Source: Methylobacterium haplocladii
Lineage (GTDB): Bacteria > Pseudomonadota > Alphaproteobacteria > Rhizobiales > Beijerinckiaceae
Length of the DNA: 64,000 nucleotides
Assembly: GCF_007992175.1 (NCBI RefSeq)
Contig: NZ_BJZT01000028.1
Coordinates: 1-64,000 of the forward strand
Direction of reading: 5' to 3'
Of this stretch, positions 31,678-38,611 are shown piece after piece. The translations under genes and the position numbers were made by a program. Numbering within the stretch: the stretch's first letter is position 1; each line of letters starts with the position of its first letter. The notes below the pieces were generated by a model that searched no databases, was not told the DNA's origin, and saw only the letters and a list, made by a program, of their open reading frames with translations.

Positions 31678-32574
31678 TCAGCAGGCTTTGCTGAGCGGCC
31701 GTTCTTCGCGCGCGGAAACGACCCGGTCGCGCCCGGTCGATTTGGCCTCGTAGAGGGCGATGTCCGCGCGCTTGAGCAGGCCGTCCACGGTCTCGCCGCT
31801 TCGCCACGCGCTGACGCCGAAGCTGCAGGAGAGCTTCACGGGCCCCCCCTCCGCCGGAATGCGCAAGGCGACGACGCGTCGGCGCAACCGCTCCGCGACT
31901 ACGAGCGCCCTGGCGATGTCGCGATCGGGCAGCAGAAGCGCGAATTCCTCTCCACCGAGCCGGCCGGCAATGCCGTTCCCGGAGATGAGGGAGGCCACCG
32001 CCTTGATCGCCTCGTCACCGACATCGTGCCCATGGGCGTCGTTGATCCGCTTGAAGTGGTCGATGTCGACGAGGATCGCAGCCAGACTCCCGCCGGCCCC
32101 TGCATCGGCGACCGCCTCGTGTGCGCGCCGCATGAAGGCCCGGCGGTTCGTGAGGCCCGTCAGCGGATCGGTCTCGGCCAGCCGGATCAGCGCGCTCTGC
32201 ATGGTGTTGAGCCGCTCGGCCGCCCGCAGCCGGGCGTGCAGTTCCTCTGCGCTCGGCGGCTTCTCGATGAAGTCGTCGGCGCCGCTGTCGAGCGCTTCGG
32301 CGAGCGTGTGCGTCGAGCGGGACGACGACATCACGATGATCGACAGCGGTCGGCTGGCATCGCCGAGAAGACGTGCGGCCCAGCACAGTTCCAAGCCGCT
32401 GATCGGCCGCACTTCGAGACTGGTGATCAGCGCGGTGATCGATGGATGCGCCGAGATGTAGTCGAGCGCCTGAGCGGAATCCGTGAACGGCTCGATCACG
32501 TGTCCGCGCGGTTCTAGAAGCCCGGCCACGAGCTTAAGTACGACGCGGCTCGAGTCGACGATCGCGATGTGCAT
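31678..32574 (-). CDS. REC-GGDEF protein with altered phosphorylation site
   Basis: This 298-residue PleD-like protein has an N-terminal receiver-like domain (1-120) and a diguanylate cyclase domain (about 140-290). The cyclase loop is intact as GGEEF in IAGRLGGEEFALLLP, with the metal-binding VDIDHFKRIND, so c-di-GMP synthesis is expected. An RxxD inhibitory site is missing: GNGI stands where the arginine motif would be. In the receiver the phospho-acceptor position reads ITSLEVRPISG, with Ser replacing Asp, while EKPPSAEEL after beta-5 keeps the lysine. Activity may be constitutive or set by protein contacts. The region 31463-31677 before the LuxR-type gene holds no gene. Confidence 0.9.
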   Translation of the reverse strand: MHIAIVDSSRVVLKLVAGLLEPRGHVIEPFTDSAQALDYISAHPSITALITSLEVRPISGLELCWAARLLGDASRPLSIIVMSSSRSTHTLAEALDSGADDFIEKPPSAEELHARLRAAERLNTMQSALIRLAETDPLTGLTNRRAFMRRAHEAVADAGAGGSLAAILVDIDHFKRINDAHGHDVGDEAIKAVASLISGNGIAGRLGGEEFALLLPDRDIARALVVAERLRRRVVALRIPAEGGPVKLSCSFGVSAWRSGETVDGLLKRADIALYEAKSTGRDRVVSAREERPLSKAC

Positions 32575-32743
32575 ACGATCCCCTAGCGGTCGCCCCCGAC
32601 TGGGCACGACTCTAAGGGGAAGAGTGCAGCCAAGAGGTTAAGACACACCCCAGAAGCCACTGCAACTTGTGCTATCCGGGGACTGCAAAAAGGGCGCGAA
32701 GCGTGTTCCCGGCAACCGCGGATTTCTCCGGAGGCAGCATTCG

Positions 32744-33184
32744 TCAGCGCCTCGGGACCGTGACCGAGATGACGCGCACGCCGCTTTGGCCCGAACCTGC
32801 CGTTTCGGCTTCGCGTGCCCATTGCCCCGTTATGCCGCGGTAAGGCCCCCTCGCGGCACGCCGGCGCGGCGCAGGTTTGTAGCCGTCGATCACTGTCAGC
32901 GTCGGTGCTGCAGTCGGTGCCTGACGGATGCCGGTCACCGTCGGCACCCCGTAGGTGCCGTAGCCCCATGCCGACGGGACGAGCTCGTTCGGGCGGGGAA
33001 ACCGCGTCAGGGGCGCTCCGATATAGCTGCCGCCGATCGCTTCGGCCGCGAAGCCGTAACCGCTTCTATCACCATAGCCGCCAGTGTAGCCGTCGTAGCC
33101 GTAGCGCTCGCCGGCCGTAACCCCGGAAATAGAGCCGGCTGACACGAGTATGGCGAGGCCGAGGCTGTGAAGGGCTGTACGCAT
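32744..33184 (-). CDS. Secreted Gly/Tyr-rich protein of unknown function
   Basis: This 146-residue protein starts with a signal peptide (about 1-24, ending VTA-GE). The mature part opens with a Tyr/Gly-rich segment (RYGYDGYTGGYGDRSGYGF), followed by AWGYGTYGVPTVTG and a basic proline/arginine region, PAPRRRAARGPYRG. No cysteine and no catalytic motif is seen. It is probably a periplasmic or surface structural protein. The ATG at 33184 has GGGAG 9 bases upstream. Small secreted proteins of this sort are frequent in this bacterial group, and the family cannot be named from sequence alone. The 169 bases between it and the REC-GGDEF gene are non-coding. Confidence 0.75.
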   Translation of the reverse strand: MRTALHSLGLAILVSAGSISGVTAGERYGYDGYTGGYGDRSGYGFAAEAIGGSYIGAPLTRFPRPNELVPSAWGYGTYGVPTVTGIRQAPTAAPTLTVIDGYKPAPRRRAARGPYRGITGQWAREAETAGSGQSGVRVISVTVPRR

Positions 33185-33378
33185 CTGAGACAACTCCCGA
33201 GTCGACGCGACACCAATCGCACGTGTCCCAGGTCGTTCCGGATGCCTGCATCCCGCCAGCGATGCAGAATGCTGACACCAGCCGGTATCCCGAGGAATTG
33301 AAGACGGACGTTCCGCTCAGCATACGAACAACGCCCCGCTTCGGGTCGAGCTCGGTGGTTCGGGATGGCTCCGTCGCC

Positions 33379-33624
33379 TCAGCGGCAGATCGTGACCCGG
33401 CGGATGATCCAGCCCTCACCTTCCACCCAGAGCCGCTTGCGCGACTTGCTGCACGTGGCTGAATCGTCATCCTCGATCGCGGCTGCAGGCTGGGCCTGAA
33501 CGGCATCCGCGACCTTGGTCGGGCCGCTCCCGACCTGGGCCGGTGCGGCCATGGCGACCGATGCCGCGAACCCAAGGAAAAACGTGCCAGTGGCGACGGC
33601 GGCGAAACGATTTTTGACGGCCAT
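33379..33624 (-). CDS. Small secreted protein with C-terminal CSKSRKRLWVEGEGW motif
   Basis: This 81-residue product has a signal peptide (about 1-26, ending AMA-AP). A short acidic Ala/Pro-rich linker follows, then a compact C-terminal segment CSKSRKRLWVEGEGW-IIRR ending TICR. The two cysteines (residues 58 and 80) could form one disulfide. The length and start are certain within codon choice (ATG at 33624). I do not know a function; the motif pattern looks conserved rather than random, and related short secreted proteins may occur in neighbouring genera. It has no operon partner. Confidence 0.75.
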   Translation of the reverse strand: MAVKNRFAAVATGTFFLGFAASVAMAAPAQVGSGPTKVADAVQAQPAAAIEDDDSATCSKSRKRLWVEGEGWIIRRVTICR

Positions 33625-34031
33625 TGTGCCCTGCCCGCGCATCGCTTCTGACGACACGCTGTGTTCGATCAATTCTCGCCGGGAACGCTCGGCTGAACCT
33701 GTACCGATACAATTCCGAGCCTGGCTGTTCGGTTGCAGGTTGTGGACATTTTCACTGCACGAAATCCGAGCATCCACCTTCGCCGTGCCGCCCTCCGACG
33801 CGGCTCTGCCGCGACGCCGCTGCAGTCCCGGAGGCCTTGAAAAGATCTCCGAAACGAGGGTAGTGCGTCGTCGGACAATCGAGCCGGCCGTTCCACCTGT
33901 CATTGGTCCTGCGATTGCTTGTTCGGAACAATTCCAAACAACGTATCGCATGGATCTTCGGCGCCCGAAGCTTCGGGTTCATGTAGAACGACAGCCCGAT
34001 GCAAGGTAAAGTTGGGCAGGAGACTTTCGCG
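33625..34031. other. 407-base gap upstream of the iron permease, with two palindromes
   Basis: No gene is supported. TTGTTC-G-GAACAA at 33919-33931 is a perfect inverted repeat lying about 100 bases before the ftr1 start, in the region expected for its promoter. CCCGAAG-CTTCGGG at 33964-33977 is a second perfect 14-base palindrome. Both could be operators for an iron- or redox-responsive regulator. The rest appears non-coding. Confidence 0.4.
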
Positions 34032-34850
34032 ATGGTGGATGGGTCGACGTTCGCACAAGCCTTCACGATCCTGTTCCGAGAAGGCCTCGAAGCGCTCCTG
34101 GTGATCGCGGCTCTTGCGGCCTTTCTGCGCCGCGCAGGCGCGGCCGAGCGCATTGGGCCGCTTTATGCGGGCGCCGCCGCGGCAGTGCTGGCGAGCCTCG
34201 CCATGGCCTGGGTCTTCGAGACCTATTACGACGGCAACCACAGCGACCTGTTCGAGGCAGGCGTGATGCTGATCGCGGCGGCGCTGATGTTCTACATGAG
34301 CGGCTGGCTCTTCCTGCGGCAGGACCCGCGGGCGTGGCAAGCCGACCTGAACCGCCTCGCCGAGAAGGCGCTCGGCGCCGGGACGATCGTCTCGCTCGCC
34401 GCTATCGCCTTCCTCGCCGTGTTCCGCGAGGGAGCGGAGACGATCCTGTTCCTGCACGCGTTGGCCAAGGGCGCCAACGGGTTCGATACGAGCCTACTGG
34501 CCGGGCTTGCCGTTGCGTCGCTCGCCCTGGTCGCGATGTTCGTGGCGATGCAATGGCTCGCGCTGCGCCTGCCCCTGCGGCCGATGTTCATCGTCACTTC
34601 CGCCTTCCTGTTCGTCATGGCCCTGAAGATGGTCGGGGCCGCCTTCCAGGAGCTTCAGGAGCAGGCGATCGTGTCCGTCCACAATGACGGCGTCCCGGAA
34701 TTCGTAGGGTCCTGGGGCCTCAACGGGAGTTGGGAAGCGCTCGGTACGCAGGCCGTGATCGTCGCCGTCGCAGCGCTGGCGGGCCTGCTGCTGCTGACGC
34801 GCCGTGGCGGGAAGACCGCGGCGGCGAGCCGGACCGCTACCGCGTCCTGA
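34032..34850 (+). CDS. Ftr1-family high-affinity iron permease
   Basis: This 272-residue inner-membrane protein has seven predicted transmembrane helices. Both family iron-binding REXXE motifs are present: FREGLEALL in the first helix (about Arg16-Glu20) and VFREGAETILFL in the fourth helix. Ftr1/EfeU proteins move iron, usually after oxidation to Fe(III) by a partner oxidase or haem peroxidase. No efeO, efeB or copper protein gene is directly linked here. The ATG at 34032 has AGGAG 9 bases upstream; an earlier ATG at 33999 has none. It is convergent with a 55-residue gene that ends 14 bases beyond its stop. Confidence 0.93.
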   Translation: MVDGSTFAQAFTILFREGLEALLVIAALAAFLRRAGAAERIGPLYAGAAAAVLASLAMAWVFETYYDGNHSDLFEAGVMLIAAALMFYMSGWLFLRQDPRAWQADLNRLAEKALGAGTIVSLAAIAFLAVFREGAETILFLHALAKGANGFDTSLLAGLAVASLALVAMFVAMQWLALRLPLRPMFIVTSAFLFVMALKMVGAAFQELQEQAIVSVHNDGVPEFVGSWGLNGSWEALGTQAVIVAVAALAGLLLLTRRGGKTAAASRTATAS

Positions 34851-34863
34851 GCGGCACCCCGAA

Positions 34864-35031
34864 CTACTCCGTCGGCTCGCCGGCGGTGACGGAGATCATC
34901 GGCAACGTGGTCGCGATCACCGCCGCCGCCGGGGCGCTCGGCGGAAGCGTGGAGGTGGCCGCGGCCGCGAGGCCGAGGATCAGCGTACAAGCCAGGAGCG
35001 AGGTTTCGATCCCGCGATACAACCCGTCCAT
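34864..35031 (-). CDS. Tiny exported or membrane protein (55 aa)
   Basis: The reading frame encodes 55 residues beginning MDGLYRGIETSLLACTLILG, continuing LAAAATSTLPPSAPAAAVIA and ending MISVTAGEPTE. An N-terminal hydrophobic helix (about 9-27) could be a signal or anchor. The start is well supported: GGGAG stands 7 bases before the ATG on the minus strand, in a gap that otherwise has no gene. Function is unknown. It lies on the opposite strand to the Ftr1 permease, ending 14 bases past the permease stop, so an antisense or accessory role is possible but unproven. Confidence 0.6.
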   Translation of the reverse strand: MDGLYRGIETSLLACTLILGLAAAATSTLPPSAPAAAVIATTLPMISVTAGEPTE

Positions 35032-35123
35032 GTCGGATCTCCCGGCCTTGATTCGGCTATGAGCCGATCATCGACTGGAAGCAGTGTGGAAACCGTAACC
35101 GGGTCGCTGCCGTCCCGATTGCG

Positions 35124-35300
35124 TCAGTGCTCGGTCCCGGGCCTGTTCTGCCGTGGGGCTTCCCCGTGCTGTTGGGTGAAAGCCGAGCGCTCGGGCTGAT
35201 TCTTGGCCTTTGCGACGCGACCGCGCTGCCAGATCGCGAAGGCGGCGACTGCGACGATCGTGAAAATGGCCAGTAGCGGTATGAGAACGTCATTCGACAT
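35124..35300 (-). CDS. Tiny single-pass membrane protein (58 aa)
   Basis: The 58-residue product reads MSNDVLIPLLAIFTIVAVAA, then FAIWQRGRVAKAKNQPERSA, and ends in a polar tail finishing RPGTEH. One transmembrane helix (about 5-24) followed by WQRGR positive-inside residues predicts an N-out, C-in bitopic protein. GGAG stands about 10 bases before the ATG. The composition is natural for a membrane peptide and unlike the Arg/Pro-rich shadows of other frames. It is followed 92 bases later by the 55-residue gene on the same strand, so both may form one transcript. No known family is recognised. Confidence 0.65.
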   Translation of the reverse strand: MSNDVLIPLLAIFTIVAVAAFAIWQRGRVAKAKNQPERSAFTQQHGEAPRQNRPGTEH

Positions 35301-35389
35301 TGAATTGTATCTCCGAGTGGGTTCCCGGAGAAGCCGATCCGGCCACCGTTGTTCCTGGCCTTGAGCACAATAGTTCTGGCGCTGAGATA

Positions 35390-35421
35390 AAGAAAAACAG
35401 CCAAGATTATCTTGGCTGTTT
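35390..35421 (-). terminator. Rho-independent terminator of the dksA-like gene
   Basis: AAACAGCCAAGA (35395-35406) pairs with TCTTGGCTGTTT (35410-35421) with a three-base loop. On the minus strand the stem is followed by TTTTTCTTT. It starts 33 bases past the dksA-like stop codon. Confidence 0.87.
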
Positions 35422-35454
35422 CGTGATATTCTAGTCGGCGTTTGGTTTCAGCGA

Positions 35455-35874
35455 TCAATCGTCGCGATAGACGCGCTCGCGGCGTTCGTGCCGCTCTTGT
35501 GCTTCGAGCGACAGCGTAGCGATCGGCCGGGCGTCGAGACGCTTGAGCGAGATCGGCTCGCCGGTCTCTTCGCAGAAGCCATAGGATCCGTCTTCGATCC
35601 GCGACAGCGCTGCGTCGATCTTGCTGGTCAGCTTGCGCTGACGGTCGCGGGCCCGCAACTCGATCGCTCGGTCGGTCTCGGACGAGGCGCGGTCGGCCAG
35701 ATCGGGATGGTTTTCGTTCTCGCTCTGCAGAGCCGTCAGCGTGCCCTGTGCCTCGCGAAGGATTTCGCTCTTCCAATTCATGAGCTTGCGACGGAAGTAC
35801 TCACGCTGCCGCTCATTCATGAAAGGTTCGGCGTCGGAGGGCGCGTAGCTCTCGTCGATCGTCACCTTCGTCAT
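35455..35874 (-). CDS. dksA: DksA/TraR-family RNA polymerase-binding regulator (single-cysteine type)
   Basis: This 139-residue DksA-like protein acts with ppGpp at the RNA polymerase secondary channel in the stringent response. The coiled-coil region (about 25-90) includes NERQREYFRRKLMNWKSEIL and the acidic tip DLADRASSETDRAIELRARD. The zinc-finger part keeps one of the four usual cysteines, in YGFCEETGEPI; the last two are replaced by ATLSLEAQ. Alphaproteobacterial DksA proteins with a single cysteine are known to work, so loss of zinc ligands does not mean loss of function. GAGGCGG precedes the ATG at 35874; an earlier start at 35886 adds only four residues. Confidence 0.92.
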   Translation of the reverse strand: MTKVTIDESYAPSDAEPFMNERQREYFRRKLMNWKSEILREAQGTLTALQSENENHPDLADRASSETDRAIELRARDRQRKLTSKIDAALSRIEDGSYGFCEETGEPISLKRLDARPIATLSLEAQERHERRERVYRDD

Positions 35875-36204
35875 GGTCCGCCTCACGCCAATCCCTGTCG
35901 GTCAGCCGCGATAGTGGGCGAGCGTATAAGCGAGGGATTGTCGGTTCACAACGTACGGCGCGGCAATCGGACCGTTCGACACGAAAAGTCGCCGCGATGC
36001 GGCAAACGCGTCACGGTCCTTCGTATCAAACATTGAGAAAAATCAAATTTGATCCGAATTTCAATGATCGAGTTTCAAGAAAATCTTTTTTGCCGGGATG
36101 TGGCCTGCCGCGAATAGAGCATTTCGGAACGTGCACGCCGCTCGGCAGTCTCGCGCCGGCGCGTCGTCAGCGACGCGTCTCGTTCAACCGCAGGTTTTCG
36201 ACGA
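35875..36204. other. 330-base leader of the dksA-like gene
   Basis: No gene is seen. An AT-rich block at 36020-36095 contains the perfect palindrome ATCAAATTTGAT (36042-36053) and is the likely promoter area of the leftward dksA-like gene. The remainder up to the AlgX-like stop is GC-rich and featureless by eye. Confidence 0.35.
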
Positions 36205-37233
36205 TCAATGCGCTCTGGCGTCGCCTTCCAGGCGCGCGATCGCGGCGGCGATGTCTGCTGCAACCTTGCGCGCCAGTGGGTGCCGGTAATGTGACTGGTC
36301 GAAGAACAGTGCCGGGTCGCGGGCCTCCGGCCCGTCGCGGCGCCAATCGAGCACAGCGCTCCGCCGATGACCGCGCACCGATGCGATGAGAGCGGCCTTG
36401 CAGGCCTGCTCCGCCCGCGCACGCGGCGTACCGGGCCGCGGCAGGGCGGCGGCGTAGATCGGCGGGAAGACCAGGATCAGCGCCGTCTCAGCCGGTAGAG
36501 CCGCCGCGATGGCCGTGAAGCGCTCGGCCGCCGGAAAGGACGGTCCGGCACGGCCGGCCTCCGGTGCCTCGGGTGCCGGCTTTTCGCGTTCGGCCGCCTT
36601 CACTGGATCGCCGGCATAGCCGAGGGCAGAATAGTCCGCCTCGTAGTCCCACCAGCCGTCGCGTGGCGCCGTTTCGTGCCGTTTGCGCAGCAGCCAGCCG
36701 ATCCGGTCCGACAGCTCTTCGAGCACCGACCAGCGCAGCAGGCCGCGCAGGTAGACGACTGTGCGGTCCGAGAACAGCCAGAACGGAAACGGCTTGTCGT
36801 TCGAGAGATGCGGGTCGTCCGTGCACCAGAAATTGTCGGCTGAGACGACCAAGGCACGCGGTGCCGCGTGATGGCGCAGATACCAGTCCATGAGCGTGAA
36901 TTGCTCCCCAGGCCCCGTCGCCGTCACCGAAAGCTGGACGAACGGAATGCCGGTCGCCTGCGAGAGCCGGCCCGGGTCGATGAGCTGGATGTGCGAGTTG
37001 CCGAAGATCGCGCCCCGATAGGCCGGATCGCGGCCGCGCACGGCCGCCGAGGTTCGCGGCCCCTGGGGCCGCACCGCATCGACGGAGAGCAGGGATGAAC
37101 GCCCGCTGTCGTAGGGATCGATGGCGTAGGCGAGCGCGAGATAGCCGGCGACGAGACCGGCGAGCCCATAGGCGAAGGTCCGGGCCCAACCGGCCCAGCG
37201 TGTCTCCGCAGTGGGTGTTTCGGGGCCGGTCAT
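36205..37233 (-). CDS. AlgX/DltD-like SGNH-type protein partner of an MBOAT acyltransferase
   Basis: This 342-residue protein has one N-terminal membrane helix (about 14-36) and an exported SGNH-hydrolase-like domain. The block GAIFGNSHIQLIDP (GNS signature) holds the nucleophile Ser. SADNFWCTDDP is a central block, and FFDQSHYRHPLARK near the C-terminus holds the catalytic Asp/His pair DxxH-like. Such proteins work with MBOAT acyltransferases, taking an acyl group moved across the membrane and placing it on a polysaccharide or teichoic-type polymer, as in AlgX/AlgI or PatB/PatA. The MBOAT gene is directly upstream with a 4-base gap. The polymer is unknown, as no polymer synthase is adjacent. 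Confidence 0.85.
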   Translation of the reverse strand: MTGPETPTAETRWAGWARTFAYGLAGLVAGYLALAYAIDPYDSGRSSLLSVDAVRPQGPRTSAAVRGRDPAYRGAIFGNSHIQLIDPGRLSQATGIPFVQLSVTATGPGEQFTLMDWYLRHHAAPRALVVSADNFWCTDDPHLSNDKPFPFWLFSDRTVVYLRGLLRWSVLEELSDRIGWLLRKRHETAPRDGWWDYEADYSALGYAGDPVKAAEREKPAPEAPEAGRAGPSFPAAERFTAIAAALPAETALILVFPPIYAAALPRPGTPRARAEQACKAALIASVRGHRRSAVLDWRRDGPEARDPALFFDQSHYRHPLARKVAADIAAAIARLEGDARAH

Positions 37234-37237
37234 CCGC

Positions 37238-38611
37238 TCAGAACTGGAAATAGATGAACTCGTAATTCGCATCGTCCCCGATCTTCAGGAGCACGACCAC
37301 GAACAGTACGGCGACGCCGATGGCCAGCGCCCGGCTCGGCGGCGCCTTGTGGACCGCCGCCCAGGCGCTCGGGCCGAGCGTCGCCACTGCGGCTGCGATG
37401 GCGATGGTGCGCCATTTGAAGCCGGACCCGACGGGCGCCAGCCCGAACAGTCCCTTGAAGACGGCGAGCGCCGCCTCGAAGGAGGTGGCGCGAAACAGGA
37501 CCCAGCTCAGCATCACGAAGAGCAGCGTCAGCGCCCAGCCGAGAATCGCCGGCATGGTTCGGTCGGCCTTGCGCCAGAGCACGCCAACGGCGAGGCCGAG
37601 TCCGTGTGCCGCGCCCCATGCGACGAAGGTCAGCCCGGCGCCGTGCCAGAGGCCGCCGAGCGTCATCGTCGCGAACAATGCCGCCATCTGGAGCGCGAGA
37701 CCGCGGCGATTGCCGCCGAGCGCGATGTAGAGGTAATCGCGCAGGAAGCGCGACAACGTCATGTGCCAGCGCCGCCAGAAATCGCGCAGCGACGTCGCAC
37801 GATAGGGCACATCGAAGTTCTGCGGCAGCACCAGCCCGAACAGCAGGGCAATCCCGAGCGCCATGTCGGTGTAGCCGGAAAAGTCGAAATAGATCTGGAA
37901 GGTGAAGCCGAGCGTCGCCTGCCAAGCCTCGGCCATGGTCACGACCTTGCCGGCGGCGGCGGCCTGAAAGACCGGATTCACGTAGACGCTGAGCGGATCG
38001 CCGAGCAGCACCTTCTTCGCCAGGCCGACCGTGAGCAGCAGGATGCCGCGCCCGATCCGCTCCATGGCGTCGGCGCGGGCATAGGGGCGCTCGTCGAACT
38101 GGTGCATGATCTCGCTCCAGCGCACGAGTGGGCCAGCGAGAACCTGCGGGAAGAAGGCGATGTAGAGGGCGTATTTGGTCAGCCCGAAGGCCGGCGCGCG
38201 GCCGGCCTTCAAGTCGGTCAGGTACATGATGTGGTGGAAGGTGAAGAACGAGATGCCGAGCGGCAGCACCCAGTCCAGGTGAGGCGCTGCGATGCCGGGC
38301 AGCAGAGAGACGAGATCGGCGAAGAAGTTCAGATATTTGAAGAGCGCCAGGACCAGCAGGTTCACGCCGATCGCCGCCGGGATCAGCCATGCGACGGGAC
38401 GCGCCAGGAAGGCCCGCGCCACCAGCCAGTTCAGCCCGATCGAGGACAGCAGCAGCGGCACGAAGCGCACGTCCCACCAACCGTAGAACACGAAGGACAG
38501 CAGGACGAGGAGCGGCAAACGCCAGGCCGGCCGAAAGCGCTCGGCGAGCGCATGCAGCGCGAGGGCGGCCGGCAGGAAGGCGAGGAGGAAGATGAAGGAG
38601 TTGAAGAGCAT
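37238..38611 (-). CDS. MBOAT-family membrane O-acyltransferase (AlgI/PatA-like)
   Basis: This 457-residue multi-pass membrane protein has about 11 hydrophobic segments. The family core is present: the FWRRWHMTLSRFLRDYLYI motif with the near-catalytic Asn/His region, and TLGGLWHGAGLTFVAWGAAHG with the catalytic histidine in WHGA. FSGYTDMALGIALLFG is a further family block. These enzymes move acyl groups, usually acetyl from acetyl-CoA, across the cytoplasmic membrane to a periplasmic acceptor. Cotranscribed with the SGNH-type partner (4-base gap), so the pair is a polysaccharide O-acetylation module. The 199 bases between its start and the HWE kinase gene are the divergent promoter region. Confidence 0.93.
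   Translation of the reverse strand: MLFNSFIFLLAFLPAALALHALAERFRPAWRLPLLVLLSFVFYGWWDVRFVPLLLSSIGLNWLVARAFLARPVAWLIPAAIGVNLLVLALFKYLNFFADLVSLLPGIAAPHLDWVLPLGISFFTFHHIMYLTDLKAGRAPAFGLTKYALYIAFFPQVLAGPLVRWSEIMHQFDERPYARADAMERIGRGILLLTVGLAKKVLLGDPLSVYVNPVFQAAAAGKVVTMAEAWQATLGFTFQIYFDFSGYTDMALGIALLFGLVLPQNFDVPYRATSLRDFWRRWHMTLSRFLRDYLYIALGGNRRGLALQMAALFATMTLGGLWHGAGLTFVAWGAAHGLGLAVGVLWRKADRTMPAILGWALTLLFVMLSWVLFRATSFEAALAVFKGLFGLAPVGSGFKWRTIAIAAAVATLGPSAWAAVHKAPPSRALAIGVAVLFVVVLLKIGDDANYEFIYFQF

Follow-up and report, generated by a model that had tools for sequence, protein, structure and literature searches.

Two small genes between an Ftr1 permease gene and dksA

The analysed DNA (the window, 64,000 nucleotides of a Methylobacterium haplocladii contig) harbors two short open reading frames on its minus strand, p58 (35124..35300) and p55 (34864..35031), encoding 58 and 55 residues, respectively, each from an ATG start. 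The p58 product is a predicted single-pass membrane protein with the C-terminal end NRPGTEH, and p55 begins with MDxxYRGxETSLL, followed by a hydrophobic stretch and by a conserved TLPMxSVTA near its end. As read from the sequence, a Shine-Dalgarno-like GGAG (35314..35311) is located 10 nt 5' of the p58 ATG, and a GGGAG (35043..35039) 7 nt 5' of that of p55. All of these positions, lengths, starts and ribosome-binding motifs agreed with the first-pass annotation of the stretch, which had also assigned one hydrophobic helix to each product. Kyte-Doolittle analysis likewise revealed one hydrophobic stretch in each, with the best 19-residue mean reaching 2.86 in p58 (residues 5-23) and 1.83 in p55 (residues 11-29, moderately hydrophobic).

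On the downstream side, an Ftr1/EfeU-type permease gene (33999..34850, plus strand; PF03239, E 8.5e-25) runs convergently with p55, their stops being 13 bp apart, and appears to be an incidental neighbour. Its listed start is 33999, and an ATG at 34032 with a better-placed AGGAG is possibly the true start. Upstream of p58 lies dksA (35455..35886, minus strand; TIGR02420, E 4.1e-43). Further along the minus strand, 32744..33636 encodes two unnamed proteins of 149 and 85 aa, frequent neighbours of p55 with no Pfam match at E<=0.001. Searches of Pfam and NCBIfam gave no match for the p55 protein of the window, and the only one for its p58, to DUF1380 (E 0.21), scored 12.1 bits where the cut-off is 26. 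An RNA element in the gap was considered and rejected, as no Rfam match was found up to E 1 in 33600..36200 and no consensus RNA structure was detected in 32 aligned p58 leaders.

Distribution and constraint of the two families

Of the 111 genomes searched from the genus of the window, 108 have a p58 match and 77 a p55 match (both E<=0.001). At the family level, p58 matched 10/199 genomes at E<=0.01, nine of them from its own genus. Across the order, the p58 profile matched 14/397 genomes (seven from its own genus and seven weakly elsewhere), and the p55 profile matched 4/297, all from its own genus. As such, both families are largely restricted to the genus at this sensitivity. Outside the genus, the best p58 relative is L207 (E 8.7e-8), which carries GGAAC 54 nt before its start. 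This and three other weak, short matches outside the genus (L209, L211, and L212) have the p58 helix region in common but not the tail, and helix and full tail occurred together in none of the out-of-genus matches listed. Three further weak matches (L208, L210, and L213) look like chance. Close relatives of p58 were found in Methylorubrum (suomiense, thiocyanatum, salsuginis, aminovorans, populi, zatmanii, podarium, and rhodinum) and also in several Methylobacterium, the named carriers comprising 14 loci, Methylorubrum included.

To describe the p58 family, 122 copies were fetched, which did not cover every match in the genus; two of them, one a fragment at the edge of a contig and the other interrupted by an early stop, were dropped, and the remaining 120 distinct copies fell into clades A (57 copies, the type of the window, including two at first placed in clade B), B (46), and C (17). 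Clade-A copies start with ATG, GTG, or TTG (45, 11, and 1 of 57, respectively), a loosely defined Shine-Dalgarno-like site precedes 56 of the 57, and the C-terminal NRPGT[ED]H is present in 52. Across 25 representatives, the columns L10, A11, T14, R26, V29, R38, S39, H45, G46, P49, and R50 were invariant. For p55, all 75 placed copies start with ATG; two of the 77 loci were not placed by tblastn, and L280 was used for L084, which is the same place. Invariant columns among 14 p55 representatives were M1, Y5, R6, G7, E9, L12, L17, L19, L43, P44, and V48.

The dN/dS comparisons exclude rows that lack an ATG or have long frames. On pairs of moderate pS (NG86), 957 clade-A p58 pairs had a median dN/dS of 0.30, and 139 p55 pairs of equal length one of 0.32 (0.28 for the first 26 codons, 338 pairs); these values are rough because dS was often near saturation. 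These ratios lie well away from 1, the value that the first-pass annotation had named as contrary to its reading, and the conservation of frames and start sites among relatives that it had proposed as a check was found. The amino acids of both p58 and p55 are under purifying selection, and their starts are constrained as well.

Spurious frames are common in this DNA, as evidenced by the 64 open reading frames of at least 40 aa counted in 32000..38500, which is what would speak for p58 and p55 being chance open frames in GC-rich sequence. Such an origin has a practically negligible probability, considering that both are conserved at the protein level despite synonymous divergence, that their relatives keep the start codons, and that particular residues are conserved. 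It is thus confirmed that p58 and p55 are genuine genes; conservation, kept starts and dN/dS all bear out the earlier suggestion of small membrane-protein genes that are easily overlooked.

The AlphaFold model of p58 (mean pLDDT 79, pTM 0.45) consists of one helix (residues 3-33) and a tail predicted with little confidence. A fold search with this model returned a single match at E 4.8, and a comparison with PDB sequences a single match at E 0.69. All seven basic residues of p58 follow the hydrophobic stretch. Since the basic side of a membrane protein is the cytoplasmic one (the positive-inside rule), this distribution points to a cytoplasmic C-terminus. In p55, the conserved TLPMxSVTA beyond the moderately hydrophobic stretch may represent an exported end.

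Some genomes harbor several p58 copies, with five matches in G266 (L097-L101) and three in G209 (L105-L107), among which L106 has an early in-frame stop. In addition, two contigs of Methylobacterium brachythecii (L014 and L015, the same as L230 and L231) open inside a p58 copy and contain its final 18 codons, suggesting that the p58 segment lies at the edge of an assembly repeat there. Relatives of p58 were detected in 2 of 72,556 plasmid records, both from Methylobacterium, one annotated as a hypothetical protein and one without a listed feature in an incomplete gene table; the p55 family sequence was absent from the viral contigs and plasmids searched, and a mobile origin of the genes was rejected.

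Gene neighbourhoods and the question of an iron link

The neighbourhoods of p58 were scanned for marker genes in flanks of mostly 1.5 kb, with some places counted twice. In 95 records, clades B and C among them, p58 was the sole marker recognised. The order DksA-p58-FlgH-FlgA was present in 19 records, with FliX also recognised in three, and other arrangements were FlgN-p58-FlgH and FlgN-p58-IspE, in Methylorubrum where named. Downstream of p58 in the window, p55 takes the place of flgH, and FliX, FlgI, FlgJ, and FlgN are located at 40.5-43.2 kb, beyond an MBOAT gene and a gene without a Pfam match that we take to be SGNH-like; the window thus keeps the dksA/flagellar side of this arrangement. 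Clade-A p58 lies at the edge of a dksA/flagellar block. Its position beside flgN and/or flgH, or beside dksA next to the flagellar block, could indicate a flagellar accessory protein. This function is improbable, given that p58 has a putative promoter of its own and runs against flgH, that its neighbours elsewhere are ispE, p55, or unrelated genes, and that the FliL model was matched by one of 25 p58 members, and weakly (E 0.027). The p58 segment was also observed at or near rearrangement breakpoints, its flanks varying among dksA, flgN, flgH, ispE, and p55 (the window, L005, L007, L046, and L109).

The neighbourhoods of p55 were surveyed in 77 genomes with fetched flanks of 1.5-2 kb. The 85-aa neighbour was found at 42 of the 77 loci, the 149-aa neighbour at 32, Ftr1 at 18 (the window and 17 other genomes), and DksA at 4, and at 32 loci none of the neighbours seen in the window was recognised within the fetched flanks. 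Often, p55 is the first gene of a block that also encodes the 149- and 85-aa proteins and a GGDEF response regulator. At L018 and L019, p55 lies close behind dksA with no counterpart of the p58 segment, and nothing similar was found there at L078 either. The window's own locus is the single one of the 77 at which p58 adjoins p55. Accordingly, p58 and p55 are no pair; they belong to two unrelated families that adjoin each other in the window.

Alignment with L018, L019, and L078 further revealed a conserved block upstream of p55, a putative promoter or leader, at 35062..35099 (minus strand). Of the 75 p55 upstream regions (150 nt), 58 contain the motif [GC]TTA[AC][CG] (11% in shuffles), and a GATCAT- or CATCCT-like element usually comes after it. 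Rows were excluded as for dN/dS in part of the analysis of this block. To our knowledge, the block fits no promoter class, and no sigma factor or regulator could be matched to it.

From the closeness to an iron transporter, the first-pass annotation had also derived the idea of an accessory peptide or antisense control; on this view, p58 and p55 would be subunits that assist the Ftr1 permease or would regulate it in antisense. Adjacency in the window, with p55 and Ftr1 convergent and nearly touching, and the presence of p55 beside Ftr1 in the other genomes mentioned above would fit this idea. However, the flanks fetched for p58, mostly 1.5 kb, showed Ftr1 in the genome of the window only, and 59 of the 77 p55 loci were without a visible Ftr1, so the conserved place next to the permease that had been anticipated did not emerge. 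Moreover, p55 and Ftr1 lie on opposite strands, and wherever Ftr1 accompanied a placed p55 the two were convergent (17/17) and thus have no transcript in common; p55 also has its own conserved upstream block, and neither p58 nor p55 matched a known Ftr1 accessory or iron-transport family in Pfam or NCBIfam. A partnership with Ftr1 is therefore very improbable. In other words, the part of the earlier reading that concerned real small membrane-protein genes stands, and the part that tied them to Ftr1 falls by synteny, which lowers the original claim. Neighbourhood alone misleads at this locus, where both genes are real but their proximity to an iron transporter seems to have arisen by chance through rearrangement.

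A putative ECF-type promoter and a possible role for p58

The interval between dksA and the putative p58 promoter contains a terminator-like hairpin (35394..35422, minus strand) with a 13-pair stem and a T-rich tail. Because the scan gave four terminator-like sites where 2.4 were expected, the evidence for this hairpin lies in its stem length. A sigma-70 promoter scan of the region found no site. On the minus strand, a putative ECF-type -35 element, GGAAC (35351..35355), precedes the p58 ATG by 55 nt, and a putative -10 element, GCTT (35331..35334), follows 16 nt after it and departs from the canonical [CG]GTT.

The -35 element is common to most of clade A: 52 of the 57 copies, that of the window included, have GGAAC at a distance of 54-61 nt upstream of the start, and four of the other five have AGAAC or GCAAC at -57..-59. 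Among representatives below 80% CDS identity, it was present in 18/21, compared with 1.7% in mononucleotide shuffles. The upstream DNA has otherwise diverged, and what an alignment shows as common to the copies is GGAAC, the TT downstream of it, and the Shine-Dalgarno region. The upstream sequences of clades B and C are different, and GGAAC at -52..-66 was detected in only 1/46 and 1/17 of their copies, respectively. Several clade B paralogues (e.g., L010, L137, L157, and L177) have a common upstream pattern of GCAACC followed by GCATTATGC or similar.

The spacing of the p58 element resembles that of EcfG, the sigma factor of the EcfG/PhyR general stress response, in that a TT (as NNTT) stands at N16/17 after GGAAC in 50 of the 52 copies. 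The -10 sequence itself is consistently unusual, the canonical [CG]GTT being found at N16/17 in 0/52 clade-A copies and at N15-18 in 2/52. CsbD genes are typical general-stress targets and were used as control loci from the genus: 20 of 30 had GGAAC within 250 nt and 10 had none there, and all 20 with GGAAC had [CG]GTT at N16/17. Similarly, nepR in the genome of the window has GGAAC-N16-CGTT upstream. When a strict version of the p58 promoter pattern was used as the query, that genome had no site, and ten genomes (nine of the genus and G062, from another genus) gave seven matches, six of them p58 itself. No common regulon was thus apparent for this promoter, because its matches were nearly all p58 and none was in the genome of the window.

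On account of its EcfG-like -35 element and spacing together with the unusual -10, EcfG is the likeliest reader of p58, and another ECF sigma factor is the main rival. Such a factor, recognising GGAAC directly followed by CTT or TT, together with a -10 ending in TT, would place p58 outside the general stress response. It would account for the CTT that follows GGAAC in 17/52 copies, for the triplet beginning with TT in 27/52, and for the complete lack of [CG]GTT at N16/17 in p58 when every CsbD control with GGAAC has it, and it can be entertained as a tentative alternative. Nevertheless, the distance from GGAAC to TT is the one expected of EcfG promoters in almost all copies, and the -10 variants GCTT, CATT, and AATT occur among the EcfG-dependent genes of S. 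melonis (PMC6599016). Reading by EcfG thus remains preferred, and expression of p58 is perhaps under general-stress control.

Taken together, we propose, at roughly even chances, that a rearrangement joined two independent genes and that p58 is an ECF-sigma-controlled single-pass membrane protein (the likeliest reader being EcfG/PhyR) whose cytoplasmic tail docks a partner. A rearrangement would have brought the two independent small membrane-protein genes together beside Ftr1. Behind the terminator-like hairpin that follows dksA, p58 would be transcribed alone, from the GGAAC-type promoter of an ECF sigma factor, with EcfG/PhyR as its likeliest reader. Its N-terminal helix would span the inner membrane and leave the conserved basic tail in the cytoplasm, where the tail (HGxxPRxNRPGTEH) probably holds or inhibits a partner at the membrane. 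Most simply, p58 would be made under stress, and its conserved tail would serve to dock a partner. The p55 product would be another small membrane protein, independent of p58, whose gene in many genomes stands beside those of the two unnamed proteins and the GGDEF response regulator.

A more far-reaching possibility is that p58 founds an undescribed and nearly universal family of Methylobacterium/Methylorubrum, a stress-induced membrane effector read by an ECF sigma factor of its own from the non-canonical GGAAC promoter, with a conserved cytoplasmic tail and with clade B and C paralogues rewired to other promoters; this extended form is rather unlikely. Literature searches found no publication that apparently treats either gene. 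Both families are unnamed in the Pfam and NCBIfam collections searched, yet they are of a familiar kind, that of uncharacterised small single-pass membrane proteins. Near-universal presence in the genus and a distinctive upstream element raise p58 above an ordinary hypothetical protein, and with its occurrence in 108/111 genomes, conserved tail, promoter-like element, and lack of a family name it is an obvious candidate for a component still lacking from the picture of methylobacterial stress physiology.

Compared with known systems, the putative promoter is what likens p58 to the EcfG/PhyR regulon of M. extorquens, whose published consensus is GAAC-N16,17-C/GGTT (PMC4814048): the GGAAC/GAAC -35 element and a TT at the right spacing are alike, whereas the [CG]GTT at N16/17 is what p58 lacks. 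With regard to the Ftr1/EfeU neighbourhood, the permease adjoins p55 in the window and in those 17 other genomes, but neither small gene travels with it as a rule or matches an iron-transport family. Like CcmD-, NapE-, and ATP19-like small proteins, p58 has one N-terminal helix followed by basic residues; weak matches to CcmD (1 of 25 p58 members; E 0.0022 in Pfam and 0.0086 in NCBIfam) and to ATP19 (4 of 25, best E 0.0076) were detected, none of them for the p58 of the window. Finally, p58 resembles the uncharacterised single-pass small membrane proteins of bacteria in its size, single helix, and unnamed status, and differs from them in forming a largely genus-restricted family with a conserved tail.
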